Source: Hemileia vastatrix
Taxonomy: Eukaryota > Basidiomycota > Pucciniomycetes > Pucciniales > Zaghouaniaceae
Reading direction: 5' to 3'
Assembly: GCA_030280995.1 (NCBI GenBank)
Contig: JASXTE010000001.1
Span: forward strand, 25,793,606 to 25,857,605
Length of the DNA stretch: 64,000 nt
Every line of letters starts with the position of its first letter. Position 1 is the stretch's first letter. Below the pieces are notes generated by a model. That model saw only the letters and a program-made list of their open reading frames with translations. It was not told where the DNA came from and did no database searches. This document shows, one piece after another, positions 6,991 through 40,135 of the stretch. The position numbers were made by a program, and so were the translations under genes.

Positions 6991-7339
6991 ATAGTCACTT
7001 TTCTTATTTTTTGTGTTTTTATCAAAAGTAATATTTGATAGATTTTAATGGGGGGTTTCAGTTCTGGAAAATACGCTCTTAAGTTTGGCTAAATATTCAC
7101 TAATATAATTGAAGATTTTGGAAACACACTAGCCACAACACCAGGGTATTTCATAAGTGAAGTATGTCACTTATTTAACTTAAATCTGCACATTCTCAAC
7201 AAAAAGTGCTGATTTCACCATAAATTCCCATTTCACTGATTTTTTGGAATCATCCCACTTATATGCAGCATTCTGCAGCACAATACTATATAACTCAAAG
7301 AATTGTAAAAAATTGAAATTTTTATACTGTATAAAAGTC

Positions 7340-8446
7340 ATGCCTTCCTCACTCTTAAATTGTGATTAATTACATCAAGCATTAAATTTCATATATCTTG
7401 ATATTCTCTTGGACTTTGATTTTGAAGAAGTTTTTTTATCAATAATGATGCTGAAACATTACTTTCTTCCCAGAAAGCTCCAAGTACTTCATCCCCCCAT
7501 GTACACCATCAAAATACTTCTTAACCTATCTGTGCCTAGTTTTAGACAGCTATTAAGGACTTATCATGATTTTTTTCTTAAATTGGCTGAGATTATTCAG
7601 GATCACCCCATTTTTTGCTACAATTATCAAAAAATATATGATCTTTAAATTCTATTGGCTGTCACACTATGGCTTTTCTGATCTAATGGTGATGTAAATT
7701 CCTTGTAACATTTGTAAAATGTCTTCTCTTTAGGGTATGCTTTGGTTAACACTTATAACAAAACAATGCATCACTGCTATCAACTCCTTGGAATATCAAC
7801 TTCTCACCTGGCCAACAGAAGAAGAGAAAATTGAATAATCTCAGGCTATGCAAAAAGAGGGCTTTGCAGGATATATTGGTTTCATTTATGGTACAAATAT
7901 TCATTTGAGTCAGAAACCTTCTCAAGTTGGAAAAAATTACTATGACCAAAAAAAAGAGATGGATCATTTTTTTCCATTAAATATTCTTGATACTACCATA
8001 AACTACTACATCTTCTCTAATTATAATCAATTTATGTTCAACTTATATGTGACGTTAACAAAAATCCATATCTTTCTTTACTGGCTATCCTGTATCATGT
8101 CAAGATTCCTACTTCTTCCAGAGAATTCAAATCTCAAAATAACATGAAAAATTCTTCAATGAAGACCAGTATTTTCTGGAATATTCTTCTTATGTAAATG
8201 GAAAGAATGTACTTCCAGATTTTTGGGGAGATTCTTCTGAACACAGCCAAAATACCAAGCTCAATAATGATTCAGAAAAGTCAAGAGTCTGTGTTAAACA
8301 TTCTATCTGAATCTTAAAAGATTTTTTTCTAGTCTAAGGGAGTTAAGAAGTATTTTTAAAAAAGATCTGAAATGTAGGCGGCAGTCAACTGGATACTGTG
8401 TTGCACTATACTTCATAACATACTTGCTGACCTCAAAGATCAATAG
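7340..8446 (+). pseudogene. Harbinger-type DDE transposase remnant (H2)
   Basis: Begins at ATGCCTTCCTCACT, shared with the H1 copy at 13699. The N-terminal part aligns with H1 (FLPRKLQVLHPP, NLSVPSFRQLLRT, IIQDHPIF). A second open segment carries GFAGYIGFIYGT and LSQKPSQVGKNYYDQKK, equivalent to the first catalytic block of HARBI1-like DDE enzymes; the expected Asp of GFVDGT is Tyr here. A C-terminal block at about 8390-8446 reads WILCCTILHNILADLKDQ followed by TAG, the usual family ending. Frameshifts and stops lie between the blocks. It once covered a full-length transposase that cuts and pastes terminal inverted repeats; it is dead now. Confidence 0.8.
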
Positions 8447-9917
8447 TTAGAGTTTTATGAAGATGAAGAAGTTAAAATGCCTCCTACTATATTCAAAACT
8501 TATTTTTATCAAAATACTGGTATAATGGAAAAAAATTTTCCAATCACACAAACTTGTTCAGAGATTTAGTTTTAATTTAATCTTTAATTAGTTATAAACT
8601 CATTTGGTATTTATCTACTATTACTACAAGTATAAATCATATCTTCTTAATTTATTCTTTAATATCTTTTTGAAAATTTTTCAAATTAACCTTATCTTAT
8701 TTTTTATATCAGAAGACTTTTTAATATGTTTTGCACTAACTACTTCACTAATCTGAAATAAATTCTTTCCTACTCCTGATATCATACCTTCAAAATTTCT
8801 TTTACTCATTTAATTTCCTATACTCTTCTGTCTGCTCCCTAGTAGATTCCTCATCTTCTTCATCTGTTTATTTTCTTTTGATGTTTTTGTTCCTCTGACT
8901 GATCCTGTACTAGAAAGTTAAATAAGTAGTCTAATTTTTTATTTTTTTAGCTAATTAACTAGACTTAGAGATTATTCTCTATATTCCAAATCTACTCTAC
9001 ATACTTTAGCCTACAACTAATCCCTGTAATGGAATCACATATAGCTCATGAATGTTAAATAGCTAGTAAATTATTTTTGGTGATAAGTCTGAATCTTATA
9101 TTTCATTAGTAATCTCTGAACTCACAAAGCTTAATACTTATAATATCTTCATAACTTGATTCTTCAGCATCAATATCAATAGTTTGAAAAAATTTCTGAC
9201 TAAGTTACTATTGATGGCTTAGAACATTTCACCTTTAGTACCTCTTTAAAATCCATAAAAAAATCATTGACATTAATCTTACCTTATCTTCTTTGTCTTT
9301 TCATGAGTACAAAAATTTGAAGATGTAAGCTACTATTAAGGGTCTGGATTGACATTAGGGACATCAAATTTTTTATAGCTCCATTAACAGCTTTTAATCC
9401 TTACACTCCTTTTCTGAAAGGTTGTATTTTGAACATAATAGTAATTGGAATCTTCACAAAGAGTACAGGTTTTTCAGTATTCTTTAATGTTATGATAGCC
9501 TTGTGCTTTGTAGTGTCTTTAAGTAAAAAAAAAGGGTAAAACTCATTTAAATTAATTATAAAGCACAAGATAAGGCTTTGAGAGTTGAAATATAACTTTT
9601 ATAAAATAAAGTGAGGGTTCTGGTTTCTGATTAATGAGTACCAATTATTTTTTTACCAGATAGATTTTATACACAAGAACATTTCATTACATAGTCGTGT
9701 TTTTTTTATCAAAATTTAATTTTGTACTATAAAAATCCAGTACATTATTAATATCACATTTTTAATCTAAAATGCATGCCTGTAAGTGCATAAATTTTTG
9801 CTTTTCTAATGTGAAATTTAAATTTCTTTCAATTTTATAAGTCTATAATATGATAAATTGTTTTTCTCCAACTTTTTTTTAAATTTTCATGTCAACAATT
9901 GCAATAACTCCCCATAA
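8447..9917. other. Interior of H2, no certain gene
   Basis: AT-rich. A minus-strand segment at about 9000-8650 has a lysine-rich, charged coding look but many stops and no family I recognise. Confidence 0.4.
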
Positions 9918-10114
9918 GGGTGTATCAGAGTTAGAAATTTTTAATTATTTAATAGGTATTTTACAACACAAAAATAATGCCACAAACTTGGCATTAATTC
10001 TCAGTAAAAAGGTATTTTGGGAGCAAAATATGGCATATTTTAAAAAATAATTATAGCTTATTTGGTGAAAAACAAGGTATTTTGATTTGGAAGATTTCTA
10101 ACTTTGATATCCCC
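9918..10114 (-). repeat. MITE-1 copy (197 bp)
   Basis: Ends GGGTGTATCAGAGTTAGAAA and TTTCTAACTTTGATATCCCC are inverted. The interior (AACACAAAAATAATGCC, TTCTCAGTAAAAAGGT) matches copies at 14723 and 24572. It abuts the TATTA duplication of element H1. Confidence 0.8.
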
Positions 10115-10137
10115 TATTAGGGGGTGTCAGTTCTGGC

Positions 10138-10166
10138 AAATCCGCACTTAACTTAAGTGCGGATTT
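10138..10166. repeat. Subterminal palindrome, left end of H1
   Basis: AAATCCGCACTTAA, one base, then its exact inverse: 14-bp arms. The same motif sits near the other end of H1. It is a probable binding site for transposase or the Myb-like protein (inference). Each arm has one CpG. Confidence 0.8.
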
Positions 10167-10814
10167 CAAACCAAATCAGAACTTAAATTTTGCAAAAAAG
10201 TCACTTATTTCAAAAAAGGGTGTCAGTTATGACCTCAAATCAGCACTTTTTTCCCATTTTTTTCACAACCACATTTTGGCCACAAAACATCCCTTCCTTT
10301 CTTACCCCATCCCTGTCACATGTGACACACTGACCTTCCTCGCTACCTACCCATCAATCCTCGGCACACACCCCTTCCTGAAATTTTCAATATTTTGACC
10401 AGGCATGTTTACATTCTTTTTTACTTATTTCTTCTACTTCTTAATCTTTTTTCTATGTGTGTCAGTTCTGACCTCAAATCAGCACTTTTTTTGTGATTTT
10501 TTTTTCAAAACCACATGTTGGCCACATCATCCCTTTCTTTCCCATACAATTTTGTACTCTCCAAATGTCCTCTTTGTGTACTTCATTCACTTGGGTTGGT
10601 ATTTTGGTTTGTTGCATATTCATTTTTTTTTTGGAATTTACGGTGAAAATTTTTTTTTGGATGGCTCATTGGTTTTCTTTCACCAGCTCAACATGAAATC
10701 GCATATTTTGTCAGTGATTTTTTTTTTCATTTATCCCTCATATCCTTTTCCTATTCTCCTCCAACATCCCTCAAACAATTTGGTTTCATTCATTTTGTCA
10801 TCTCATCTCTCCAG

Positions 10815-11162
10815 GTAAGTCACTTTATTATTTTTTTTGATTTTTTGATTACTATTATAATTTTTATTGTTTTTTTCTGTTTATTTTATTTTTTTGTAAG
10901 TGGTTATTTTGGATTTCAATGGTATAATTAAACTTTTTTTCTCTCCCTCTTTACTTTCTTTTTTAGCTCCATCACTCTACTCTTCATCCCTCCTTGGCAT
11001 GGTCATTATCCCCCCTTTCCCTTATTTCACTTTTTTTTGGCTCCATTTCATTGAAACACATACATTGCACATTCTTTATGCATTTCACTTACTCCATATT
11101 CAATTTCCCCACAATTCCAACATCAATCTTTCTCACTCTATTTTTCCTACATTTCAATCAAG
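10815..11162 (+). other. Candidate intron-exon-intron structure in the H1 leader
   Basis: CTCCAG/GTAAGT at 10814/10815 and a pyrimidine-rich TTTCTTTTTTAG ending at 10966 define a 152-bp candidate intron. A second donor AAG/GTAAGT lies at 11162/11163. The exons are CT-rich without convincing coding sense, which suits a spliced 5' leader for the downstream TET-like gene. RNA evidence is lacking. Confidence 0.45.
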
Positions 11163-11334
11163 GTAAGTTTCATCTCCTTTTTTTCATGCCTATATGATAT
11201 CTCATTCCTTTTATGAAAAGTTCATACTTAAATATATGTATGACTCTTATCTGGATAACAGTGAACTTATAAAACTCCTTTTGATCTCATCTTCATTACC
11301 ACTTTTCAAGTTTTTGTAAAATTTTGAAAATCAG

Positions 11335-11660
11335 ACTCGGAATTAGGGTTAGGTTTATTCAAATCTAATGTTCTTTTAACTGAAGATTCTCCTGAAGGCT
11401 ACCTTTCATTTCCCACAAACAGATTTGAATTTGATTCAGTGGTTGCTGAGATATTGATCGTTAAAGTTGAGCCTTTTTTTTACCAATTTAAATTTTTATT
11501 TCATTTTTTTATGTAAAAATTTAGGATTAGGTTTATTTAAATCACATGTCCTTTAACTGAAGATTCTACTAAAGCATATCTTTCATTTCCCTCAAACAGG
11601 TTTGAATTAGGTTCAGTGGTTGCTGAGATTTTGACCTTTGAAGTTGAGCCTTTTTTCCAA
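11335..11660 (+). repeat. Tandem duplication, period about 178 bp
   Basis: Two copies share AGGTTTATT, TTTAACTGAAGATTCT, CTTTCATTTCCC and CAGTGGTTGCTGAGAT, starting near 11351 and 11529. They lie upstream of the TET-like coding exon. Confidence 0.8.
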
Positions 11661-11716
11661 ATTTCACTTGTCTTATTTCACATTTTTATATTGCATATTT
11701 AGAGGATAAGGATTCT

Positions 11717-12090
11717 GAAACTCTTATATGATTATTATCTAGGCATTTCAATTATATAGGCATGTATTTGTTGCTCAAGAATATCACTAAAGCTCAAAAA
11801 GATGAAGATTTTTGCTTATGGGACACTCTACCTTCCTTTAACTCTTTTCTTGCTCTTCGACTCAAAAAGCACTGTAATAAAGCATTTGAAAAAAATCATG
11901 AACTTGCAACCGAAACTCTTATATGATTATTATCTAGGCATGTATTCGTTGCTCAAGAATATCACTAAATCTCAAAAAGATGAAGATTTTTGCTTATGGG
12001 ACACTCTACCTTCCTTTAACTCTTTTCTTGCTCTTCAACTCAAAAAGCACTGTAATAAAGCATTTGAAAAAAATCATGAACTTGCAACCA
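11717..12090 (+). repeat. Tandem duplication of a coding exon segment
   Basis: GAAACTCTTATATGATTATT opens both copies (11717 and 11912). The coding part (LLKNITK.QKDEDFCLWDTL) is repeated with an offset of 178 bp, and the first copy has about 17 extra bases near its start. Only the second copy continues into the dioxygenase domain. Confidence 0.85.
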
Positions 12091-12566
12091 AATTTGGAAT
12101 ACCGAATTGGTGTGACTCCGAATGGGAAGATATCAGCCACGAATATCTTTTATTTTCTAATGTTATTATCACTCATTCTGGATTTCACAATAAAATTCAC
12201 ACCAATACCAAGGACACCAATTTTCTTACTTTTGGTATATTCTCATATATCAAACCAATTACTGGCCAACCAATACCATCTCCAGCTAAAATCAAATGAC
12301 ATGGTTTATATTTTCCAGACCACCAGTGCATCATTGATTTTGGTTTGGGAAATGGTATCATCAAAACTATTTGTAATTCTTCTAAGGATAATCATCAAAC
12401 AACCAAAGCTCCTCCTGGTTTTGAATCCTGTCAAGATTTAACACATTTTGGTTTCTCATTTCAAATCAGTCATAAGTTGATTCAAAGAATTAATAAGGTA
12501 AAGAAAGAAGGTAAAGTTAATCAATTTAAAAAAATTTTATTTAGATCCAAAAAGAATGGGGATTAG
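11762..12566 (+). pseudogene. TET/JBP-like 2OG-Fe(II) dioxygenase (H1), one internal stop
   Basis: After the duplicated N-terminal segment one frame reads through KFGIPNWCDSEWEDIS, FSNVIITHSGFHNKIHTN, FGIFSYIKPITGQPIPSP, FPDHQCIIDFG, DNHQTTKAPPGFE and THFGFSFQ. I recognise this block order from the 'Tet-like 2OG-Fe(II) oxygenase' proteins expanded in rust fungi. Such enzymes oxidise 5-methylcytosine using iron and 2-oxoglutarate; activity of this subgroup is untested. The metal motif expected as HTD reads HTN, and the distal His is in DNHQTT. A single TGA at 12297-12299 interrupts the frame where Gly is expected (copy 3 reads KGHGLYFP). The gene converges on the transposase. Apart from this stop the copy is well preserved. 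Confidence 0.7.
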
Positions 12567-13082
12567 AGTTGTCATCAAAAATTTTATATTTTTTCCTAAA
12601 TTTTTAATAAATGTTTTTTATGTATCAATTTCCTCAACTAAAGTAATGGGCCCACAATCTTGTGTTGTATAAATGGTAATCATGATAAAATTTATTTGTT
12701 TCATGGGGTTCCTCTAGCCTATACCTGTGGAGAGTCCCAAACTTTTGTTTCTAGACTTGGTCTGCATTTTGGCTTGAGGGATTGTCATTACTTTAAACTA
12801 GGGAAAGTGATATATATTAGATATTTATTTAATAATTTACGTAATTATATTAAATTTAGATGACTTCCACCACTTACTTCAATAAAATGCAGGGGGGGGG
12901 GGTATTGGCAAATTTTCAAATCTGACATGTGAAATTGATGACTTAGAATAATTTTGGTGATATCCACCCCTTGCTTCAATAAAATGCAGGGGAGAGTATT
13001 GCCAATTTTTTAAAACAGATATAGAATTTTTTTTGACTTGTAAATATTTTGGTGAAAATTTTTGACAAGAATGTGAAATTAA
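12567..13082. other. H1 middle, no gene; short duplication and G11 run
   Basis: TTCAATAAAATGCAGG occurs twice, at about 12880 and 12973. The first copy runs into 11 consecutive G (12892-12902) and both are followed by TATTG(G)CAA. This is the 3' flank shared by the convergent genes and is otherwise AT-rich. Confidence 0.6.
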
Positions 13083-13699
13083 TTGTTTCCACCTTGAGCA
13101 GGTTTCTGGCTCAAAGGAATAGCAGTACCATCAACAAAACCAATACATCCTGGGAAGCCCTCTGCTTGCATAACCTGAGATGATTCAAGTCGCTCTTCTT
13201 TTGTTGGCCAGGTGAGAAGTTGAGATTACAAGGAGTTGATGGCAGTGATACATTGTTTGGTATAAGTGTTAACTGAACCATACCCTAAATCAAAGACATT
13301 TTCTAAACGTTTCAAAGCGGCTCCATTACCATTTGAACCCAAACGACATAGTGTGATGGCCAATTGAATTGAAGGATGTCGTTGTTCTTTTTGAGAATTA
13401 TTGTGAAATATGGGATGATCCTGAATAAGCTCAAGCAATTTAAGGAAACATTCCTGAGAAGTCCTGAACATCTGTCTAAAACTGGGTGTAGATAGGTTAA
13501 GAAGTGTTTGGATGGTGTACTTGGGGGTATGAAGTACTTGAGGCTTTCTGGGAAGAAGGTAACGTTTCCTGGCCATTTTTGATAAAACGACAAAATCTTC
13601 TTCTAGATCAGAATCGGAATCAGAGTCCAAGAGCAGTTCAAGAGCCATGAAAGTCATTGCTTTATGTAATTTATCACGATTTGAAAGTGAGGAAGGCAT
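13083..13699 (-). pseudogene. Harbinger-type DDE transposase, N-terminal half (H1)
   Basis: Starts MPSSLSNRDKLHKAMTF. It continues through an acidic stretch, RYLLPRKPQVLHTPKYT, STPSFRQMFRT and LIQDHPIFHN, then QLAITLCRLGSNGNG and FDLGYGSVNTY, the helix-turn-helix-like region typical of HARBI1-type enzymes. A TAA at 13228-13226 replaces Glu of the H2 copy (INSLEYQ). The frame then stays open through GFPGCIGFVDGT, with the first catalytic Asp present, and ends after LSQKPAQGG at about 13083. The remaining DDE domain is deleted. Confidence 0.85.
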
Positions 13700-13924
13700 A
13701 ACTCTTATATGATATGATATGAAGATGTAAGTGATGTACGATGTTTTGATTTATGAAGTGTTATTCTGCGGAGTGCTGCGTATGAATGGGATGATGCTGA
13801 CAAATCAGTGAAATGGGACTTGATGGTGAAATCAGCACTTTTGGTTTAGAAAGTGCGGATTTGAGTGAAATAAGTGACTTATTTCATTTTGAAATCCACC
13901 AGTATTGGGGCTAGTGTGTTTTGT

Positions 13925-13952
13925 AAATCCGCACTTATTTAAGTGCGGATTT
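13925..13952. repeat. Subterminal palindrome, right end of H1
   Basis: AAATCCGCACTTA, TT, then the exact inverse: 13-bp arms. It is the counterpart of the palindrome at 10138. Confidence 0.8.
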
Positions 13953-13997
13953 GGTCAAATTTAAGTGCAGATTTTCCAGAACTGACACCCCCTATTA

Positions 13998-14323
13998 ATT
14001 TCATCCTTGTAGGGGGTCCAGATTGCCAAATTTATTCAAAATGCATTAATAAAAGATAAAAAAGTCATTCTGAGAAAGACACAAAGATAATGTAATTATA
14101 CTTCAAGAAAATAAATGTGAATCACAAATAAATTCAAGGAAACATTCCACAAATTGATCTAGAAGTGATACCACAGTAGCATAGCATGAAAGTCTGAATT
14201 CTCAAATAATTGGAGTAGATAAATTACTTTTATACTCTAAAATATGACATTGAAAGAGAAAAATGGCATAATTTCTTAGACCCTGAACTTGGAATTCCTA
14301 CCTAAAATTATAGAATTAATAGA
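13998..14323. other. H2 interior, nothing recognised
   Basis: AT-rich sequence between the H1 duplication and MITE-2; no coding signal. Confidence 0.5.
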
Positions 14324-14536
14324 CACCGCAAAAAAATCATCACAACCTGTTAGTAGATTCTAATCCCCCAATTCATCTTTGATTCAAGAGTAACTCAGAT
14401 TTGATGCTGCACAAACTAGTGTGCTCATTTTTCAGTGCACATTCTTTCCAGAAAATTTACAGCTTAGCTGAAACTGAGTTAAATCAAAGATAGAGATTGG
14501 CACCTGCTATCAGGTGCACAAGTTTTTTTTCTGGTG
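14324..14536. repeat. MITE-2 copy (213 bp)
   Basis: Inverted ends CACCGCAAAAAAATC and TTTTTTTTCTGGTG, with a CACCTGCTATCAGGTG hairpin inside the right end. It matches 21556-21767 and sits just past the 3' end of the TET-like remnant. Confidence 0.75.
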
Positions 14537-14544
14537 AAAACCTT

Positions 14545-15870
14545 CTTTTCTCACCTTACTTACCCTATTGATAATGTCTTGGTATATTTGAAATAAACAT
14601 CCAAAATGTGTAAAGTTATCACATGTTTCCAAACCAAGGAGTTTCCTTTTTTTTGATTATTTTCCATAGAATTATTCCAGATAGTTTCAATAATTCCACT
14701 CCCTAAACCAAAGTTTATAATAGGGGGTATCAAAGTTAGAAATCTTCCATTTTAAAATACCTCTATTTTCCACCAAATCAACCATGATTAGTGTTTCATA
14801 TATGGCATATTGTGCTCCAAAAACACCTTTTACTGAGAAATACTGTCAACTCTGTAACTTCATTTTTGTGTTGTTAAATACCTTATAAATAATTACAAAT
14901 TTCTAACTTTGATACCCCCTAATACATTTATGACCTTAAAAATATAAACCATGTCTTTAGATTTTTTTGGAGATGTAATTTGACAACAAGTAGTAGGGAT
15001 TATGTAATAAAAGAGACCAATGGTAAGGGAATTTGAATCATTTCTATCCATGCAAATCTTATCATGAAGTCCTCCATAAGTAATGATAAAATGAGATGAG
15101 AAGATATTTCTTTCATCCAAAATGATCCATTCAGCATCTGAACAAATAGATAGCCCCATTTTTATTTCCAGTTCACTATTAGATTGAAAAGTAGAAATTT
15201 ATAATTTTGTCAAACAAATTAACAAAAACAGAATTAAAAAAACGCAAAGAATTACATTTTTTCAAATCTTTTTTTCATTTATTCAGAGCTAATTGATATA
15301 AGCAATAATATATAATTAAAGAAATTATTAAAATAATAATTGGAATGAAAAGATTTAATTAATATTAAATAAAAATAGCAAAAGAAATTTCATTTTCATA
15401 TTCTGGTCTACATTCAAGGGAAATCATAACTCCTTTATGCTTGCTTTTCTTAATTAAACTCTGTCTAACCAAAGCCATTTGATATAAAGTAGAGATAAGA
15501 TCTGTCAAGGGATTAAAAGTTTCATCTTGGTCTCCATTAAAAGAATAAACCTGGAAAATAAATTAAGGTTTGAAGCCATTACTGACAACTGCTAAATTTT
15601 TATCATCATTATATTTTGGTAAGACTTTAATATTTTCTGTTAAATTTTGAATATCTTTTTTCTTCTTAGAAATACTAGTTTAAAAAATTTAATACCAGTT
15701 AAGTGACCAAAGAAAGCTTCAAACTCTTTTTTTTGTTCATTCAAATGTTTCTTGTACTTTTTTTGATATATTTTTTGTTTTATTGAATATGAGACTAAAG
15801 AGAGAGAGGAAAGTGATGAGGAAGAGGATGAATTTTGAGGAAAAAATTGATGCAGAAATGTATCCATCTT
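14545..15870 (-). pseudogene. TET/JBP-like dioxygenase remnant (H2), split by MITE-1
   Basis: Upstream exons on the minus strand include a Lys-rich segment (KKYKKHLNEQKKEFEAFF, about 15760-15700). A candidate 3' splice site TTATTTTCCAG precedes FNGDQDETFNPLTDLIS. The catalytic part has MGLSICSDAEW, FIITYGGLHDKICMD and IGLFYYI; the expected HTD motif reads CMD, so the metal His is lost. Coding similarity stops at 14919, where MITE-1 begins, and resumes beyond it at 14722 with NFGLGSGIIETIW and a FGCLFQIYQD block. The gene converges on the H2 transposase. Many stops; dead. Confidence 0.68.
14723..14919 (+). repeat. MITE-1 copy (197 bp) with TAATA duplication
   Basis: Starts GGGGGTATCAAAGTTAGAAA and ends TTTCTAACTTTGATACCCCC: near-perfect 20-bp inverted ends. 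TAATA precedes (14718-14722) and follows (14920-14924) the element. It is inserted in the TET-like remnant. Confidence 0.9.
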
Positions 15871-15894
15871 TTTTATTTTCAGTTGACATCATTC

Positions 15895-16290
15895 TATAAT
15901 TCCATAATAAAAACATACAAAAACACCAAAAAAGACCCCAAAAATTCAAAAGAAGCCAATAAACACCTCCAAAACAGCAAAATACTTTCTTAAAAAAATC
16001 CAAAAAACACCAGCAAAATTCTCCAAAAAATTCCAGAAAAATATGCTAAAAAACTCCTTAAAAATACACCAAAAATGCCTGCCAAAATTTTAAAATATGG
16101 CTGAAAAATACTCCAAAAATTCTACTAATTAATAGAAAAAACCCAGTGAAATAAGGAATAAATGCTTCCTAAATAATCTAAAAAATGCTGATGGAAGATA
16201 GTGAGAGACACCAAAAAAATGCCAAAAAATGCCAAAAAAAAGACCAAAAACACCAAAAAAAAACTAAAAATAAACCACCAAAAAAGGATT
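15895..16290 (-). repeat. Degenerate CCAAAAA-type simple repeat
   Basis: Dozens of short CCAAAAA, CACCAAAAA and TGCCAAAAA units. On the minus strand these are TTTTTGG runs, upstream of the TET-like exons and probably intronic or promoter sequence of H2. Confidence 0.65.
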
Positions 16291-17449
16291 TGGGGATAGT
16301 TGAAACTGAATTTTAAGAAAATTTTATTTTTTGAGACATAGGGTGAGTGATTGAATAAAACATTATGCATTAGGTAGAATTATGCAGCTTGAAATTATGG
16401 AGGGAGGGGAAACAAATGAAGTCAGTAAACCATATACTCACATAGCAAATGCAAAATGACTGTTATAAATATGCAATTTGATGTTATGGAGAGTGGGGGA
16501 AATCAATGTAATGATCAAAACAGCAATTTTCATTGTAAATATGAGCCAAAAGCTACAAAAAACAATTAATAATCAAAAAAGTCAAGCAATTTTTTAATGT
16601 CCTCATAAAATTGGCCATTTTTTATACATTCTGTAATTAATTCTTTTCTTTTAATTTTCATTGTTTTCCAATTAAAAAATTTCCATATCTCCTTAAAATT
16701 AATGTTCTTTTGTTTTCTCTTAGCCAATATAAACTCTTTTCATCTCCTCAGCCTCAAATTTGGACTTTTCAAAGTTTTATTGAAGCAAAAAAATTCCCCG
16801 AATCTAAGGCCTGCTGATCTTTAATTAGCATATGATCAAACTTCATCTTCTCGAATTCAAACAAATTTTTTTCAATAGAAGAATTTTTTAAGAGAAAATC
16901 AAATAGGAAATTAAAAATAAAAATATTATTGAAAAAGATATATAGTGAAAAATTCTCACTAAAATTTTTTTTTCTCAAAATAATCATCAAGGGAGCCCAA
17001 AGAGCTGTTTGAAGTATTACCACACGTTAAAAGATGGTTCAAGCTCATTAAAACTGAAGTTTAGCAGTTTATTTGGAGTTTGAGCTTGAGGGTTCAGGAA
17101 ATTCATCTAAAGAAGCTTCCAAAGCAGTATTCACATTGCTGAAATTTTTATTCTTTTTTAAAATTTGAGTTTGAGTAGGATGAAAATAGAAAATAAAAAA
17201 TAAGCAATTTAGTGAAAAATTTATGAAAAAGAAAAAGTAAACATACATCAAAATATTAGGGCTCCAAGGACTCAGATCTGCTCTAAAATAATTGTTCTTC
17301 TTGATAGTTGGGATCTTCTTCAGCTGAACTATGGTTAGAATCTGGAGGGTGTTTATTTCCTTGAAGTACTGGTGTGTTGGGACAATAATTGGATGGTTGA
17401 AATTTAGAGGGTATATATTTAGTAGTATTTTGTAAAAAACCAAGTGTTG
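16291..17449. other. H2 interior, no confident gene
   Basis: AT-rich. A minus-strand ORF at 17443-17069 (124 aa, hydrophobic and Lys-rich) may belong to the Myb-like or TET-like transcription unit but shows no recognisable domain. Confidence 0.4.
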
Positions 17450-17933
17450 AAGTCAACTCAGGAACAAAAAAGAAAATCCATTTCCTTATAGAAATGACAT
17501 GAAAAATTTATCTTTTTAGAAAAAGTAGTAATTTCAATCTCCAAATCATTATCATCATCAATACCAAAACCAGTGGAAGTGGAAACCAAATGAGCCTTTT
17601 TATCTTTTTATTGTTAATTTTTGAATCTCTCCTTCTTTTTCTTAGGATTTATGTCACTTCTCCTTATTTTTTTCTTCTTTACTTCTCTTTCCATCAACCA
17701 TAATCAATAGACCTTTGATAAAGGTGGATGTCCAAGAAATGTGGACTTCTCACCTCAAAAACATGGATTTTAATTTGATTTGATTTTGAGGAAGTTAATG
17801 ATTATGAGATAATATTCCTTTTTCAGATTTTCTGACTTTGATTTATCAGGTGAGGAGCTTGCTTTACAAAAATACTTTTGTGATGAGGCATTTTTTGAGT
17901 TACCTTTTGAGTGTTGGATTTTCTGGGAGGCAT
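17450..17933 (-). pseudogene. Myb/SANT-like protein remnant (H2)
   Basis: Starts MPPRKSNTQKVTQKMPHHK. It then aligns, with stops, to the 62-kb copies: YYLIIINFLKIKSN matches DHLILINWLKTKGN, and STSTGFGIDDDND with FYKEMDFLF matches SSSTGFGITD with YYKEMDSKF. I know this type as a short multicopy rust family whose N-terminus looks Myb/SANT-like; PIF/Harbinger elements commonly encode a Myb/SANT partner needed for transposition. It lies about 370 bp inside the right end of H2 and upstream of the TET-like gene on the same strand. Confidence 0.55.
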
Positions 17934-18004
17934 TATGAAAATTTTATGGCACAATTAAAGAGATTAAGAGGTTGAATAAATAAATAAAAAAGAAGAAAAA
18001 AATG

Positions 18005-18298
18005 CCTGGTTAAAATGTCACAATAAAATGTTTCAAATATCAATGAGGGGTGTGTGCTGTGGATTAATGGGTAGGGAGGGAGGGAGGTCTGCCACATGTG
18101 GCAGGGATATGCTGTGAAAGGAAGGTATATTGTGACCAACATGTGGTTTTGAATATAAATTGTGCAAAATGTGCTGATTTGAGGTCAGGACTAACACCCA
18201 TTTTTGAAGTAAGTGACCTTTTTGCAAAAATTAAGTGCTGATTTTTTTTTGATATCCACATTTGAGTTAAGCATGGATTTTCCAGAAATTACACCCCC
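18005..18298 (-). repeat. Long subterminal region of H2, inverted relative to the H1 left end
   Basis: Read on the minus strand it parallels 10120-10400: AAGGTCACTT, GGGTGTTAGTCCTGACCTCA, ACCACATGTTGGTCACA, ACCCATTAATCC and AGCACACACCCC. It marks the TET/Myb end of this element family. Confidence 0.75.
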
Positions 18299-18988
18299 TA
18301 ATTTATATGATATTATTTTATAAAAAATATGAAAAAAAGTATCTGGTTTTCCTGCTCATCAAAAATTACCTATAGAGGTATTAATTACATCTTTCATTTT
18401 TGATTGCATGTAATTTATGAGATTCCCTAACATAATTTCCAGAAGTTCAACCCAGGATAAAACTCAGGCTTTTTAAATTCTTAAATATTTTATGGGCTAT
18501 AGTACTTTTGAAAACTGCTCTTTATTTATATTAATAAATTTTCAGCTAACTTTAAATTAGAAAATTGGGCTGGTCACTTCATTTTCTTCAAGCCAACATA
18601 TTCACCAAAAACTTGAGTTATTTTTTAGGTGTAAATAACAGTATTTTCCTCCATGAGGACAAACTCATGTTTAAATTTATTCAATTTCAAAGAGGGTATG
18701 AGGGTGCTAAAATAAAAATCTTTTATCATTTTTTTGAAAGTTTTACATTCAGAAGGGAAGATTACAAAGGGGGCTTTGGTAGTATTGATAAATCCCCCAA
18801 ACCATGATTGATGATTGTTCACTTTTGAAGGTGGTTTGTATCTATTGGAAAAAAAATATTTTGCCTTTTATCTTCCAAAAAAAAATTTTTTTTAAATACT
18901 TTACCAACTTCAGAAAAAAATGATTAGCCCAAATCAACCTTTTATAATTTTTGACAGTCCAGTGGAGATGCTTAAGAAAAAAAGGTGA
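18299..18988. other. No gene recognised
   Basis: AT-rich gap between H2 and the solo LTR. Small ORFs on both strands at 18565-18822 show no family resemblance. Confidence 0.45.
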
Positions 18989-21767: not shown

Positions 21768-22583
21768 TACTTATTAATATTTTCAGTTAAAAACTTATTC
21801 AAGGTAGCCATAAAATGACTTCAAAATTCTGACACAAATTATTGTGTTATTAAATCCATCTTACCAATCATTTCCATGGGGTCACAGGGCTCCTGGAAAT
21901 CATGATGTGCATATTCATGCAGTATCTCTAAATATTAATTAATTGGATTATGTTACTTTTAAACCATTTATATTCATTTATACTCCTTCTCATATCTACA
22001 CAAAATGAGTTCTTTGAAATTTCTTGGTCAATTTATGTTTTTTTGAGCCAAAACCATCATATATGATATTAAAATTATCAAAAAAACAAATGGAAAAGGC
22101 AATGCTTCAGTGAGGGAGAAAAAGAGTTCAAATTCTCTATATATTAGACACAAAGACTCTTAAAATTTTTGGAGATCTTTTGGAAAAGCAAGGTGAACAT
22201 ATTGGACCAATTCTTGGAGAAATTGGCAACTGTTCTCATTGTTTGAACTTTGAATATGTGATGTAATTGAAGTACAAAGCCTATTTTCAGAGCTACATAG
22301 TCATTGAGAAAAATGAATAATTGCAGCTGTGGTGCACTTTATTTTGAATTTAAAGGTGTCTTAATGAAATAAACTAGTATTATATCTTTCTGGAATAAGT
22401 ATACTTCAAATCAATGATTACAACAGCCAAAAATTTTACAATGTTGCTTCTTATTGGTCAGAAGTTGACTCATTTGGGATAAGTGGAAACTAAATGACTC
22501 AAAATCAAATACTAGGAATAAAACCAGCATTAAAAATGCACCAACTTTAAAAAGTCAACTTTATAATTGACAACAAAAAATTT
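21768..22583. other. No confident gene
   Basis: Possible 5' region of the SNF2-like pseudogene; no recognisable motif. Confidence 0.4.
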
Positions 22584-24440
22584 ATGAAAGATAAACTGGA
22601 TAAGCTTTGGGAGAATGACAACAAAAAATTTCTTCACAGTGTGTACCATCCTCAAAAACAAAAGTGTGATAATATTGAACAACAATTTGGTGGATATGGG
22701 TCAATACTTTCAGATGACATGTGTTTGGGAAAAACACTATCAACACTTGCTCTGATAAGTGCAACACAAGAGCAAGTTATAAAATTTCAACAAAGATTGG
22801 AGCATTTTAGTAAAAAACTAAGTTTTTTCACCTTAATTATATGCCCATTATCTGTACTCTCAAGCTAGAAAGATGAAATAAATCTTCATCTTAACCCTTG
22901 ATCACTTCCATACCATGTATTTTATGGTCAAATTTGTGATGATTTATGAGAAGAAAGGCTTCAGCAAACTAAAATTGTAATTACTACTTATGAAACAGTC
23001 AGCCCTTTGATAATAACTAAGCAAATTCAAAAAATATCTATCACTGATAAGTAACATTATATGTTATTGAATTGTTCTAGATGAAGCACAGTATGTTTTA
23101 TATGTATCTTGACACAAAAAATGATGTTAAGAAATTTAACAAGAAACAATAATTTATTATAGCTACATCAAACATCCTTTATCCAAAAGTACTCAAAAGA
23201 TTTTTAGTTTACTTTCCAAGAATTGAATATTTTTAACATGAACACTGTTATAAAAATCACCAGAAGATCTGCAGAGTTTAATCACTTTTCTTTAGCTGGA
23301 TGGATGGGATGAGGAGTTCTTTTGAGAGAACAATTTACACCAAAAATGAAAGTTGGTTCATTGTAGGAAGTCAAAACTATCAACCACCTTATGAAGGTGG
23401 TCTGCTTATGGAGAAAAAAGTATGTTGTACTAAATCTCCCTAAAAAGGTTGAAGAAGGTATATTGGTGAGTTTTGGAAGATGCAGGAAAAAAGACTGGAC
23501 AAACTACAGGAATTATTTTACAAGCAATTTGGCCCAAATTTTAATCAAAAAAAAGTGAATTTCTATAAAAACTAAAGGTTTTAAAACTATTTGGGAACCA
23601 TCCAATGTATGAATCTAGAAAAGGTAAACAGCCTGATGAGTATACATGGAGAGATTTGGCTAAGATATTACATCTCATAGAGCATGTGATGGAGTTTGTG
23701 CAAGGGCAAAGAGGCATAAAAGAGCCCAAAGAAGTCATCTTTTCAGAATATGTGGACTTTTTATAAATGTAAGTAACTAACTTAACACTTTTTGATGAAG
23801 GAAAATTAAAGGAATGATTATTTTATAAAGAATTTCAAAAGCCCTAAAAGAATATAAAATTGGCTTTACAATGTATGTAGGGGATTAGAGTCAGAGGGCC
23901 TGAGATGAAAGTATAAACAGGTTTAAAAACAATATCAATAGCTTTGTTCTTCTTGGTTCCATTAAGTCAGCAGTACTAGGTATTGATTTACAATGTGCAC
24001 AAAATGTTTACATAATGATATTTAAGAATATAACTTTCACTTAATACAAGATATTTGAATGGGAACACTCATTAATTGAATAATTTATTACTCTGAATTT
24101 GTGAAGTAGCCAAGCTGTAATCTATCAATAGAATCTCAAGCTATTGATTGGCTTTTCAAATGGTTCAAAAAAACAAGGTCCATGTAATTAAATATTATTT
24201 GAGAAAGAGTATTGAATTCAGTATGTACAACATTCAAAAAAAAGGAGAAGCTAATTATGTATGTAAAATCAATTTTTTATGATTAAAAATGAAAACTAAT
24301 TATTTAAAATTTTATTTTCAAAGCTCAGTGTACCAAATAGTGAAGAAAAAAAATTTCAGCTTAAAAATATGGTTCTTGATGAATATCTTATTGAGCTGAA
24401 GAAGTTGGAGCAGTCAGTTGAAGAAGATTATTGATGTTTA
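22584..24440 (+). pseudogene. SNF2/Rad5-like ATPase remnant
   Basis: The opening ORF has GSILSDDMCLGKTLSTLALI, a SNF2 Walker A region with Cys where Gly is usual in DxGLGKT. Later blocks, in several frames, are IVITTYETV, IVLDEAQ (DEAH-box equivalent), YVVLNLPKKVEE, and in the C-terminal helicase lobe AVLGIDLQCAQNVYIM followed by ESQAIDWLF. These follow the order of Rad5/HLTF-type proteins that move along DNA or remodel chromatin. Many stops and frameshifts separate them. It may be a host-derived pseudogene or a transposon-carried one; nothing at its edges decides. Confidence 0.75.
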
Positions 24441-26982: not shown

Positions 26983-27553
26983 TCAAGAATTCTGTTATAA
27001 TCCAGTAAGTGACACTTTCAAAGAAGGTACACGTAAATAATATCCCTATAGAAATATTTGGATAATTACAACAGGTTGGGGTCACTTATATAGTGATTTC
27101 AGAAAAAGATGCCCTGTTATATAATAAAATTGTGATATTGAATCATCAATTTTACCACTAATTTAACCTATAATTGTTTTTAGTGGGAGTCTGTCAATAG
27201 ACCAATTAAATTTGTGATCTTTGCAGATGATAACCAATTAAACTGATTAATTGTTTTCTTTTTACAGGACTCTTAATACTTTTTTTTATTGGTTTGTAAA
27301 ATTCATTTAATATTTAGAAAGAATCTTACTAACAAATTTTCTTTTTTAAATATAAATACACAGCTACATATTGTAGACCAGTTAAATCAAGTGACCACAT
27401 AAAAGCATATTTGACTTTTGGCACTTAAAAATTCACTTAATACCAATAAGTAAGCAATAAAATTGTCTTCAGTGGTATTAATAAATACTGATTAAACTCC
27501 TTTTTGAAGTTTTTCAAATCTAAACTTTCAATTTGCTAAAATTCCTCGTAAAA
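26983..27553 (+). other. 5' leader of element B
   Basis: AT-rich untranslated leader with repeated GACCA(A/G)TTAAA motifs, shared with element D (58040-58640, minus). No ORF. Confidence 0.6.
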
Positions 27554-28084
27554 ATGTGTGACAACAATGACATTGTAAGTAATAAGGCAAAACCTTATAA
27601 CTTAAGAACTAGAGCTGAAAGACCTATTACAGGACATCCAAATGGAGGGTCAAGAATCACCAGTAACAATAAACAACACCCCACCAATGTCCATGGAGGA
27701 AAAGGAAAAGCTCTTAAAACAATTGTCAATAAAGAAGTCCAAAAACACCTTACAAGAGCAAATTCACTCCCTCTCAACCCTACTGAATACACTAACAATA
27801 AGAGTAAACAATATGTTAGACCAGATCAACAATCTGGAGAAAAGGCCGGCACAGGGCTTTATAGAAGTCAACCAGGCTCTAGTGGATATAAGGTCTCATC
27901 AACAACCAGTGGCACCAAATACCACAGCAACACCTCCAGTCCCAGAAGAGGACCAAAAGATAACTGTAAGCAAATGGAAGTGGGATTGGTATGCCCAAAA
28001 CTACAACAGTCCTCCTCAAAAAGGATCCAGCAGTCACCCTTACAGGGGAAAGCCAAGGAGAGGCAGGGGAAATGGAATAAGACC
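27554..28084 (+). CDS. Frame-0 leader ORF of element B
   Basis: Begins MCDNNDIVSNKAKPYNLR. Element D has MCENIENVSNKVKHYNLR at the same place, so this N-terminus is conserved and the ATG at 27554 is preferred over the one at 27533. Beyond about 30 residues it overlaps the nested +1 ORF and is open right into Gag-Pol in B, but in D the same frame stops early (at YKE). The overlapped part is therefore probably open by chance. It may supply an N-terminus to the nested protein or act as a uORF. Confidence 0.45.
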
Positions 28085-28091
28085 GTGGTAA
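27642..28091 (+). CDS. Nested +1-frame ORF of element B, 149 aa
   Basis: MEGQESPVTINNTPPMSMEE opens it. A heptad-rich segment follows (KSKNTLQEQIHSLSTLLNTL and VNNMLDQINNLEKR), then a Pro-rich linker, SKWKWDWYAQNY, and a basic tail SSHPYRGKPRRGRGNG ending RPW and a TAA. Element D retains the same protein in the same relative frame (KSKNTLQEQIHFLSAPLNTL). A and C proteins share the layout of coiled coil, W-x-WD and His-Pro-Tyr basic tail. It lies +1 relative to Gag-Pol and ends exactly at the Gag-Pol junction. Function unknown; an RNA-binding or capsid-associated role is a guess. Confidence 0.75.
   Translation: MEGQESPVTINNTPPMSMEEKEKLLKQLSIKKSKNTLQEQIHSLSTLLNTLTIRVNNMLDQINNLEKRPAQGFIEVNQALVDIRSHQQPVAPNTTATPPVPEEDQKITVSKWKWDWYAQNYNSPPQKGSSSHPYRGKPRRGRGNGIRPW
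28085..28091 (+). promoter_or_regulatory. ORF junction GTGGTAA in element B
   Basis: GTG in the Gag-Pol frame sits where C and A have ATG, one base before the TAA of the nested ORF. The same bases form a consensus splice donor (G/GTAAGT). Either a near-cognate restart or a splice site is possible. Confidence 0.4.
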
Positions 28092-31000
28092 GTCATCCAT
28101 CTTCTCAAGATCAATTATATAATCCTAACAATGAATTACTTATAGGTAATGAAATTGATAGAGAGTTATTGGATATAATTGATAAGGATTTAAAAAATTA
28201 TTCATTTGAAAATAACATGTTAGACTTGTCATTACATGAGGACAATGTACATAGTTTTATTGATCACCAGGAAAATACTATTAATATAAAAATGGAATCA
28301 AATGAATTAAAAATTGACCCTGATGATGAATCTTCTGAATTGGAAACAGACAAAATTGAATATTTTCTGAAAGAAAATCCAATGGAATCAAAAATAATTA
28401 GTAAATTATTATTACGAATTGAAAAATTGGAAGAATTCTCTAGAGAGTCCAACAATAATACAGAAAGTGTATTATTAAACATCACACAATCATTGAGTAC
28501 AACAGCCAATAAGTTAAAAGTTATTGAGAATTCAAATAATGAATTGATCAATGAAAACAAAAGATTAAATTCTGAGATTAAAAATTTAGAAATTAAATTA
28601 GAACATTCTCAGAATATTATGGCCACCATAGAGGGACGTGTAAAATTGTCTTTTTCAAATGTAAATGATACTTTAACTCATGTACCTGTAATAAAAGATA
28701 GGTTACAAAGAGTAGAAATTGAAGTAGCTAACATTTTGAAAAATACTGAAACAATAAAGGATAAGACCTCTTATGTAGAAAGAGTACCAGTTTTTATGAA
28801 ACACTCTGATGATAAACCAATGATGGAACATGAACATAGTGTCATGGGCTCTGAGAATATAAAATCAGTAAAAGATGAAATCAATGATCATCTTTCTAAA
28901 GTGAGTGAATTACTCAATACTCCTCAGGTTAGGGAAGCTAAAACTAGCCAAAAGAACTGGCCTAAGTTAGATCAGTACCCTTCTTTTGACGGGGATTCAA
29001 AATCTGATTGGCAACAATTCATACAAAGAATTGATAACTTAAAATTTTCATATAAATTACCTGATGAAGAAATTACTTCAAAGTTAATATCTTTATTTAC
29101 AGATGTGGCCTTATGATGGTTTGAATCTGTATTGAGTGAGGGAATTAATTACTCCTGGAATGAATGGAAGGCACTAATTGAAAGGCAATTTGGTGGCCCA
29201 AAATTTAGAATCACTCAAAAAAGACTATATGAAAGGGCCAGATATAATCCAAATGCTGGAGATAAACCCATGGTCTTCTTAATGAATTTAATAAAAATCA
29301 TGAAAGCTATGGATCCAAAAATGGATTATGAAGAGTGGAAAGAAAAAATAATATACAAGTTACCTATATCAGTTAGAGACATTATTGTAGCTAGAACTGA
29401 AACTATCAGAGACACCTCTGGATTCATTAATATATGCAATGAGATATTATTAAACCACAAGTATGAAACCAAGTATAGTAATTACAGACAAAGTGTTGAG
29501 GTGGTAAAACCTACTACAAGTAAGTTACCAGTGGAAAAGAAAAAACCTTCAGCTCCCCTTGTCCCTAATAGACAAGAAAATAACACTTGTTACAAATGTA
29601 ATGAGCCTTGGGTTAAGGGTCACATGTGTAAGAAAAGAATAAATGTTATTGAAACCTCACAGAATTCTGAACCTAGTAATTATGAAGATGAGAATGTGGA
29701 ATCTAGTGAGGATTGCAAAAGTAACATATCTTACAGTAATGATGAAAATGAGATATTTGTATTAGAACAGGATATAATGTTCCTGAATGATGCTATACCT
29801 CATACAGACACATCTTTAACTTCCATAGAGGAAGCTGAAATAATTAAAGATGTATCTCATGATACTTACAAAATAACACCTATCAGAGCTCCTATTATCA
29901 TATGTGGAAAAGAAATGAATGCCATTCTTGACACTGGGGCTGCAGGTAGTGTAGTTTCACTTAATGCATTAATGAAACTTGATAGTAAGTACCTGGAAAA
30001 ACTAGAACCTGTTCAGACAAAGAACTGGAGGGGTTTTGGTTCAGTATTAAATCCAATTGGCAAATACAAAACTGCTGTATTCTTTAAATAAAATAATGGA
30101 TATGTAAGAGCAGTTTGTGAATTTGTAGTAATGGATAATAATAATTGTAGTGATTGGTTTATTATTGGCAATGATTTATTGACAAAATTTGGCATTAAAC
30201 TAGATCCTGCAAACAGTTGTTTCACCATAGGCGTGAATGGTAAAAGAAAATTCAAAATATGTTCTGAAAATTCAGTATATGCCATTTCTCCTAGAGAAGA
30301 ACAACTGCAAGGTGGAAGAACCACCAATGAAGTGGGTGAATTGGAAAATGAAATCCAAAAGGCCTCTTTCAGTCCTCAACTCTCAAAAATTGAAGAAGAA
30401 GATATTTTGAGATTGATTAAATCATATCCTATGGCATTTGCTCATGGTTCAAATGAACTAGGATTGGTCAAAGACCATGAGATGAAAATTTCTCTGAGCT
30501 GTGATCTGGATAATATTCCTGGAAGCTTAAAAAAGAAACCTTACCCAGCATCTCCTGCAAAAAGGAAAGATATTGAAGACAATATAAAATTGTTGTTGGA
30601 AATGGGTATTGTTGAAAAAGTGGACACAACACCTAAGTATTGTGTCATTTCACCAGTATTAATCTCTTATGAAAAAGATAAGGCAAGATTATGCGGTGAT
30701 TATAGAGCTCTGAATACATACACAGTAGATGATATTTACCCTCTACCAAGGATAGCTTCTATCCATGCTACCTTACAAGGAGCAAAATATATTTCCTGTC
30801 TGGATGGGAACAAGGGTTACCACCAGATTCCTGTGGAAAGAAATTCTCAAAATTACTTATTAATAACCACACATATGGGTATATATAAGTATGTGAGAAT
30901 GCCATTTGGCCCAAAGAATGCCCCTTCAGTCTTCCAAAAATTGATGGATAGTGTCTTTCATCAGGAAATGGTTGAAGGATGGTTGTTGGTCTATATTGAT

Positions 31001-39510: not shown

Positions 39511-39915
39511 ATGTCCAATAGTTTGGCTAGCAGCATGGATAACTTACATGTGGATGAGGTTGAAGTGGATAATGACACTGAATCTGTAGGTTATTCTAAA
39601 TTAACTTACAGAAATTATTCAGCTGACAAAAAACCTTCAGGACGTGGAAATGGCAAGAGAAGTGGAAAACCACCCTCACCAAACACCTCTGAAAGAAGTA
39701 AAACCTCTAATAAATCAGGACAATCAACTCAAAGGTACAAAAATAAAAAAGATACCTCTAACCCAACAAGTAAACAATCTGTCCAGTCACATCAAAGAAC
39801 TGAAAGCAGAAAGCATGAAGTACAAGGCAAGGGTAGAGCCACTCTGGCAACAGATGCAGGAATTTTTAAATCCCAAACAGGCTCAAACTCCTCATTTCCC
39901 AGCCTCTCAGCCTAA
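39511..39915 (+). CDS. Frame-0 leader ORF of element C
   Basis: MSNSLASSMDNLHVDEVEVD: acidic, then Ser/Lys-rich. It reaches the conserved AATAAAAAAGAT string at 39742-39753, 232 bases from its ATG, and the A ORF reaches the same string at nearly the same distance. It then overlaps the nested ORF until a TAA at 39913. Only the part before the string is likely functional. Confidence 0.45.
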   Translation: MSNSLASSMDNLHVDEVEVDNDTESVGYSKLTYRNYSADKKPSGRGNGKRSGKPPSPNTSERSKTSNKSGQSTQRYKNKKDTSNPTSKQSVQSHQRTESRKHEVQGKGRATLATDAGIFKSQTGSNSSFPSLSA

Positions 39916-40135
39916 TCAGGTACCCAGCCCCTTCATGCAAAATCAAAGCACTCTGCAAGTGGAACAGTGGAAATGGGATTACTTGATGAGCCATTACCAG
40001 CAGAATGTTCAACAACCAGCTCAACACCCTGGCCCATCCAGGACACAAACTTACCATCCATCTCCTCAGCCCCATCCTTATCAGGGAGGCAGAAGAAGGA
40101 AGGCACAGGGGAAGTTTCCTCCCTTACCATGGTGA
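39644..40135 (+). CDS. Nested +1-frame ORF of element C, 163 aa
   Basis: The conserved body starts after KIKKIPLTQQVNNLSSHIKE (coiled coil). A Gln/Pro-rich middle follows, then VEQWKWDYLMSHY, PGPSR and a basic tail HPYQGGRRRKAQGKF ending PLPW and a TGA. Upstream residues 1-35 overlap the leader ORF and may be used or may be replaced by a frameshift at the A-run. Close to the A protein, distant but colinear with the B and D proteins. It ends at ATGGTGA, overlapping the Gag-Pol ATG. Confidence 0.75.
   Translation: MEMAREVENHPHQTPLKEVKPLINQDNQLKGTKIKKIPLTQQVNNLSSHIKELKAESMKYKARVEPLWQQMQEFLNPKQAQTPHFPASQPNQVPSPFMQNQSTLQVEQWKWDYLMSHYQQNVQQPAQHPGPSRTQTYHPSPQPHPYQGGRRRKAQGKFPPLPW
40129..40135 (+). 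promoter_or_regulatory. Stop-start overlap ATGGTGA in element C
   Basis: Gag-Pol ATG 40129-40131, one base, nested-ORF TGA 40133-40135. Same geometry as A. The bases also read ATG/GTGAGT, a good splice donor, so splicing is an alternative. Confidence 0.5.

Follow-up and report, generated by a model that had tools for sequence, protein, structure and literature searches.

A 64,000-nucleotide stretch of the genome of the coffee leaf rust Hemileia vastatrix (hereafter, the window) contains a transposon, H1, in which a TET-like dioxygenase gene lies beside part of a PIF/Harbinger-type transposase gene. The best reading of H1 is that of a non-autonomous derivative, shaped by deletion and rearrangement and presumably moved in trans. 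We consider it probable that a broader account also holds: H1 would be a derivative of a TET-carrying transposon of the PIF/Harbinger (PHIS) superfamily and would have been amplified in trans, with the TET of the complete copies serving to counter silencing. The account draws on the anatomy of H1, on a stop codon that its copies share, on complete relatives elsewhere in the genome and on a pronounced decay of CpG sites.

Structure and copies of H1

H1 is bounded by 17-bp terminal inverted repeats (TIRs) that match each other without mismatch (positions 10120-10136 and 13976-13992). With up to 3 mismatches allowed, this TIR occurs 4 times in the window, compared to a mean of 0.06 in dinucleotide shuffles; the remaining two matches, at 7051 and 18298, delimit H2, an older element. 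A search of the genome (747,610,610 bases) with H1 returned at least 115 DNA matches (40 of 8669 candidates were scored), so the family is multi-copy. Long segments are mostly 93-97% identical to H1; one is 90% identical. From 39 fetched copies plus H1 itself (40 in all), we kept the 36 that have both TIRs, with at most 2 mismatches, 2.5-5 kb apart; L019, L020, L024 and L047 do not have both TIRs by this criterion and were dropped from the counts. The mean pairwise distance of the 36 copies is only 2.3% (1.7% without CpG columns), which indicates recent spread. The TET region and the transposase piece are present in all 36; hence the TET gene is not a peculiarity of this nested locus. The expectation that copies carry both genes is borne out in this set, with two reservations: a search with the whole of H1 as query would miss relatives that lack TET or are much shorter, and some pairings of DDE exon and third gene (see below) have no listed TET match.

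The TET-like open reading frame (ORF) of H1 matches the PF20515 profile above its cut-off (56.3 bits; cut-off 27), in agreement with an earlier, sequence-only reading of the window, which had called it a TET/JBP-like gene. The HxD...H iron triad, which we placed by eye with guidance from the available text of Kojima (2025, Biology 14:1741, PMC12730594), is not contained in one open frame in H1: the HxD motif has Asn, and a TGA precedes the distal His. In L046, L050 and L009 the triad does lie within one open frame. Outside the aligned set, L024 has Gly at the TGA codon, and the frame of L020 stops at the same point. The TET frame of L046 is open for 222 amino acids and matches PF20515 at E 7e-27 (95.2 bits), covering positions 50-210 of 211; a search of a protein database with this sequence gave 46 candidates, none at E <= 0.001. 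Of 14,546 candidates from a genome-wide TET search, 150 were scored; every one of them is full length, with 92-100% identity, and at least one stop is present in 147 of the 150. This list favours the close relatives of the query. Also of interest is that the codon for the HxD Asp overlaps a CpG, which reads TCG on the other strand, and encodes Asn in 8 of the 36 copies: decay through methylation may here hit the catalytic residue itself.

The transposase ORF of H1 (13226-13750, minus strand) continues past a stop to about 13085, where it ends after the first catalytic Asp motif. A Pfam profile search found no DDE_Tnp_4 domain in this ORF or its continuation. In copies that read through (e.g., L045), the frame diverges from the protein of a complete relative, L049, after GFVDGTAIPLSQKPAQGGNNYF, the region of the first catalytic Asp. 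A Harbinger-type transposase is thus present, as had been claimed, but in truncated form. With TET and transposase both broken, H1 itself cannot make the enzyme that had been proposed for it.

Complete relatives and the origin of H1

Two long relatives share the type of ends seen in H1: L048, at 6.88 kb, and L049, at 6.51 kb. Their transposase appears to comprise two exons, with the intron taken from the alignment; the second exon matches DDE_Tnp_4 (E 1.9e-21 in L048, 1e-21 in L049), which identifies these elements as PIF/Harbinger (PHIS). The first exon of L049 is open for 232 amino acids. In both elements the TET gene lies on the transposase strand, and a third gene lies on the opposite strand. 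The sole Pfam match of the 247-amino-acid third protein of L049 is to PF13837 (Myb_DNA-bind_4), with an E-value of 0.0013 for the whole protein and 1.6e-4 for its core; PF12776 comes next for the core, at E 0.14. An NCBIfam search yielded only a weak IS5-family match for the L049 DDE exon (1.7e-6, under the cut-off), and none for the third protein or TET.

We also searched the genome with parts of L049 (the DDE exon, an 89-amino-acid TET piece and the third gene), and took the best 150 matches from 10,881, 10,349 and 14,654 candidates, respectively. Most of these are stop-free inside: 140 of the DDE matches (20 have one common bit score), 138 of the TET matches, and 149 of the third-gene matches (48 with identical E-value and score). 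Among the stop-free TET matches, 35 belong to open frames 300 amino acids or longer, 8 of them to frames of 393. TET and DDE matches come within 6 kb of each other in 21 cases, against 0.36 expected by chance; all 21 pairs are on the same strand, 2.4-4.1 kb apart, and 18 are stop-free on both sides. At the level of the family, the link between the two genes proposed by the sequence-only reading is therefore sound: in relatives, TIRs of the same kind enclose both a PIF/Harbinger DDE transposase and TET.

For the third gene, all 150 listed matches were compared with hand-picked subsets of the TET matches (15 of 150) and the DDE matches (13 of 150); since these subsets were chosen by eye, the resulting counts are lower bounds. 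There are at least 15 TET-third pairs and at least 11 DDE-third pairs, always on opposite strands. At least five loci, L049 included, hold all three genes in one common order, and at two of these loci the TET frame runs open for at least 300 amino acids; judging from coordinates and frame lengths, there are copies in which all three frames are open. For 6 of the 11 DDE-third pairs, the DDE exon has no neighbour among the 150 listed TET matches, and five of these six span 2.5-3.6 kb, compared to 4.3-4.7 kb in the five three-gene loci; the short pairs may be TET-less or deleted forms. Beside one H1 copy there is also a diverged transposase of the same kind (L013:2-721, minus strand; GFPGCIGFVDGT motif), without a Pfam match, that constitutes a further subfamily.

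Another observation to emerge from these comparisons is that the two genes of H1 seem to have different histories. The transposase region shares 97% identity with its L049 counterpart, whereas the TET reaches only 80-81% against L049 or L048, and the TET segment is inverted relative to the element ends when compared with L048 and L049 (H2 has the H1 orientation). This segment seems to have undergone inversion, exchange, or both. Two copies bear on the order of events: L046 combines a truncated transposase with an open TET, and L050 has a stop-free TET with H1-like gene spacing (only one of its ends was found in the stretch retrieved). Their pattern argues that the DDE exon was lost first, and that the TET stop and then the main amplification seen here followed.

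We hypothesize the following course of events. Complete elements of 6.5-6.9 kb encode a transposase, a TET-like dioxygenase and, on the opposite strand, a third protein weakly resembling a Myb/SANT DNA-binding protein. The DDE exon and the third gene would have disappeared from the H1 ancestor, whose TET segment lay opposite to the L048/L049 orientation; this TET would then have acquired the stop, and the stop-carrying form would have multiplied. Matching ends and recent spread suggest that the transposase of complete copies mobilises the H1 form in trans through its intact ends. Insertion takes place at AWT and yields a 3-bp duplication. The TET of complete elements is most likely an oxidase of 5-methylcytosine, through which silencing of the element's own genes may be countered.

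Several observations weigh against this account. In both long copies that we read, stops interrupt the TET frame: L048 has 3 in 190 codons, and L049 has 4 in 210. Stops also occur in the transposase of L048, in its first exon, leaving L049 as the only one of the two with open transposase exons. The open three-gene loci are known from their coordinates and frame lengths, not from their sequence. The PF13837 match of the third protein (22.5 bits) is under the Pfam cut-off of 27, and the third-gene piece of L048 has no Myb/SANT match in Pfam. Sequence searches of the Protein Data Bank (PDB) returned no relative of TET or Myb, the best hit (E 0.046) being a ribosomal protein, and AlphaFold failed on the third protein (2 sequences) and on TET (7 sequences), with predicted local distance difference test (pLDDT) scores of 35 and 34, respectively.

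Selection, CpG decay and the role of TET

Among H1-family copies, non-CpG variants are spread evenly over the three codon positions (19/18/14 before the TET stop, 23/15/21 after it, 42/46/44 in the transposase), as is expected without selection. Between L046, L049 and L048, TET differences accumulate at third positions (38/24/79, 24/21/76 and 33/22/74); transposase differences between L049 and L048 are likewise third-position-rich (13/12/24 and 8/8/25). These are codon-position counts rather than a formal ratio of nonsynonymous to synonymous rates, and they are consistent with selection that once acted on both genes but is absent from the H1 copies. It is this third-position excess between subfamilies that speaks against TET being a passenger, captured and carried without benefit to the transposon. 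The stop-free TET matches in long open frames point the same way, as does the occurrence of TET in several transposon superfamilies, according to the text available for Kojima (PMC12730594). Bearing in mind that the most amplified derivative seen here has a dead TET, and that the 150 listed TET matches include none near the five short DDE-third pairs, we regard a passenger TET as unlikely, but as deserving some weight.

In H1 copies, C>T changes affect CpG sites at 152 per 1000 and other sites at about 6 per 1000, a 25-fold excess, with the highest value (225) at TCG. Such CpG-specific decay points to methylation, and agrees with the TCG hypermutation in Pucciniomycotina that is cited by Kojima (PMC12730594). 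Within 300 bp of the element ends, decay amounts to 83/388 (21%), versus 374/1015 (37%) inside. When separated by context, ends and interior do not differ in this direction at TCG (0.297 vs 0.284), and the effect is confined to non-TCG sites (0.093 vs 0.175); we therefore do not claim protection of the ends, and see here no evidence for TET guarding them.

The sequence-only reading had the H1 enzyme acting on methylation at its own ends to permit transposition. That H1 is a working transposon of this kind, for all its perfect ends, recent spread and lower overall decay near the termini, is largely refuted by its sequence and is highly improbable: the DDE domain is missing, the TGA stands ahead of the distal iron-binding His, HxD contains Asn, and the end effect disappears at TCG and may be explained by selection on the ends of source copies. 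We attach just as little credence to readthrough or recoding of the common TGA, by which the TET of H1 would still be made: many of the 150 scored matches have a single TGA and are otherwise open on both sides of it, but recent spread explains that open frame, the codon probably stood for Gly in the ancestor (it is GGA in L046, and encodes Gly in L024, L049, L050 and a TET remnant at 63 kb in the window), and variants past the stop look neutral.

Insertion sites, neighbouring elements and known families

TATTA adjoins each end of H1, and had been taken for a perfect 5-bp duplication between perfect inverted ends. The ends are perfect, but the duplication is shorter. The flanks of the 36 copies mostly read N-A-W-T-A on the left and T-A-W-T-N on the right; TA is next to both ends in 35/36, yet the full 5-mers are equal in only 15/36. 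Flank bases -3 and +3, where A and T are about equally frequent, are identical in 33/36 copies (p 2e-7 vs 50:50). In the sequences retrieved, we found paralogous empty sites for 13 insertions (L009, L016, L021, L023, L026, L027, L028, L030, L035, L036, L041, L042 and L043; those used for L021, L026 and L043 are diverged). In the best empty site the overlap of flank bases is 5, not 2, in 13/13 insertions; additional matches for three insertions gave overlaps of 4 or 6. Wherever the empty site is informative (e.g., L016, L023, L028, L035, L042), it lacks the outermost A or T. The 5-base overlap, combined with the missing outer base, indicates a 3-bp AWT duplication (ATT at H1), the terminal A and T being the element's own. 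A 5-bp TAWTA duplication is ruled out by the unequal 5-mers and by the absent outer bases. Duplication of W alone, by an element ending in TA, would leave the same empty-site pattern; we prefer 3 bp because that is what the superfamily usually makes. It is very doubtful that the duplication is the dinucleotide TA, as given for the PHISTA families of other rusts, with AWT a mere target preference: this would account for the TA at both ends, but neither for the agreement of bases -3 and +3 nor for the overlaps of 5. In three composite arrangements (H1 with a miniature inverted-repeat transposable element, MITE; L048 with a MITE; and, apparently, the L013 element with another element ending CCCCC), the two partners are separated by exactly TAWTA.

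H2, into which H1 is nested (Table 1), has ends that are 76-77% identical to the first 332 and last 913 bases of H1. The claim that it repeats the arrangement of H1 and adds a Myb/SANT-like gene holds in that H2 is an older relative with pieces of the transposase, TET and third gene; the Myb/SANT-like character of the latter is weakly suggested, by way of the match under the Pfam cut-off in L049. The MITEs are flanked by TAWTA-like sites, and were possibly moved by a related transposase. At the window edge (63285-64000) there is a third TET-like remnant, 69% identical to the H1 TET and just under the PF20515 cut-off (E 2.3e-5, 24.9 bits); 62459-62619 matches the third-gene region of L048. Two Gypsy-like retrotransposons (27524-33322 and 39511-45625, judged by eye) have long open frames and are almost free of CpG: the observed/expected ratios are 0.06 and 0.03, compared to 0.28 in H1 and 0.118 in the window, and these elements are perhaps adapted to a CpG-destroying genome. 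An open frame at 22551-22868 has a helicase-like motif, which we take to be SNF2-like.

Table 1. Coordinates of H1, H2 and associated features in the 64,000-nucleotide window
Feature	Position	Strand	Remarks
H1 element, including its own terminal A and T	10119..13993		TIR AGGGGGTGTCAGTTCTGG
Left target-site duplication of H1, ATT	10116..10118		Register centred on W in 33/36 copies; empty sites of other copies
Right target-site duplication of H1, ATT	13994..13996		Register of copies; empty sites of other copies
TET-like ORF of H1	11760..12299	+	PF20515 2OG-FeII_Oxy_6 (Tet-like), E 5.8e-15; ends at in-frame TGA common to copies
TGA in TET frame	12297..12299	+	34/36 aligned copies; GGA in L046, TTA in L009
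Remainder of TET domain past the stop	12300..12530	+	Includes distal His (DNHQTT at 12387)
HxD position	12198..12206	+	His-Thr-Asn in H1; GAT (Asp) in 28/36 copies, AAT in 8/36 including H1
Tandem duplication, 178-bp period	11751..12092	+	Extra unit only in H1 among 36 copies
Truncated transposase, N-terminal region up to and including the first catalytic Asp motif	13085..13750	-	One stop inside in H1; 13073-13953 is 97% identical to L049 1095-209
H2, older full-length relative	7051..18298		Interrupted by H1 and two MITEs
H2 transposase remnants, including DDE part	7069..8623	+	78% to L048
H2 TET remnants	14586..15646	-	Pieces 15646-15464, 15096-14939, 14712-14586
H2 third-gene region and end	16562..18302	-	78.6% to L048 5283-6999
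MITE, 197 bp	9918..10114		TIR GGGGGTATCAAAG; adjoins H1
Second such MITE, 197 bp	14723..14919		Within H2 TET remnant; TAATA flanks

In basidiomycetes, TET/JBP genes have reportedly been linked to KDZ transposons by Iyer, Aravind and colleagues; there, as here, a TET/JBP gene resides on a DNA transposon, but the transposase superfamilies are unrelated. The sequence-only reading held a link to PIF/Harbinger to be undescribed. Such a link was in fact published for other rusts in December 2025: the available text of Kojima (PMC12730594) reports TET genes in seven rust transposon lineages, one of which, PHISTA, comprises fifteen Harbinger families with TA duplications, from five Puccinia species and Austropuccinia psidii, and has a third protein without Myb/SANT. 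Hemileia is absent from the main text of that paper, and a literature search of limited depth returned no report of TET-carrying Harbinger elements in Hemileia. The Hemileia element shares with TET-containing PHISTA a rust host, a DNA transposon that combines a PIF/Harbinger-type transposase with TET and a third gene, and TA beside the ends. Unlike PHISTA as described there, it duplicates AWT rather than TA by the evidence of empty sites, its third protein is weakly Myb/SANT-like (under the cut-off), and the copy in the window is non-autonomous with a nonsense TET.

Han et al. (2015, PMC4482050), in the text available, separate PHIS groups by their duplications: TWA for PIF/Harbinger, AT for ISL2EU, ANT for Pangu, CWG for NuwaI and TNA for NuwaII. 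The ANT duplication of Pangu was shown by empty sites, and Pangu TIRs usually begin AG or GG. The Hemileia AWT, together with a TIR that begins AGGGGG, fits Pangu; the second ORF of Pangu, however, has no known motif, and TET is not mentioned in that text. Canonical PIF/Harbinger and Nuwa elements have a DDE transposase of the same superfamily, and the second ORF of Nuwa is Myb/SANT, but AWT does not fit TWA, CWG or TNA. As the likeness to Pangu consists of duplication and TIR start, and not of a DDE tree, we assign the Hemileia family to neither Pangu nor PHISTA.

What is new is the Hemileia member itself, its AWT duplication established from empty sites, its weakly Myb/SANT-like third protein, an inverted TET segment at odds with the transposase, and the rise in copy number of a derivative with a nonsense TET. 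These data extend TET-carrying Harbingers to the coffee leaf rust, and correct the reading of the family's insertions. We tentatively put forward a more ambitious interpretation, which is possible but which we would not yet expect to hold in all its parts: the TET of complete elements would be a diffusible anti-silencing factor under selection, exploited along with the transposase by derivatives like H1; the "TA" of PHISTA would be a misreading; and TET-carrying Harbingers would belong with or near Pangu. If TET is indeed diffusible, then an element whose own TET is dead can reach high copy number in a methylating genome. H. vastatrix provides a natural experiment in this respect, in that complete TET-carrying copies and an amplified dead-TET derivative occur together in one CpG-decaying genome; comparing methylation and decay between the two types of copy would make it testable whether a transposon-borne demethylase helps its carrier.

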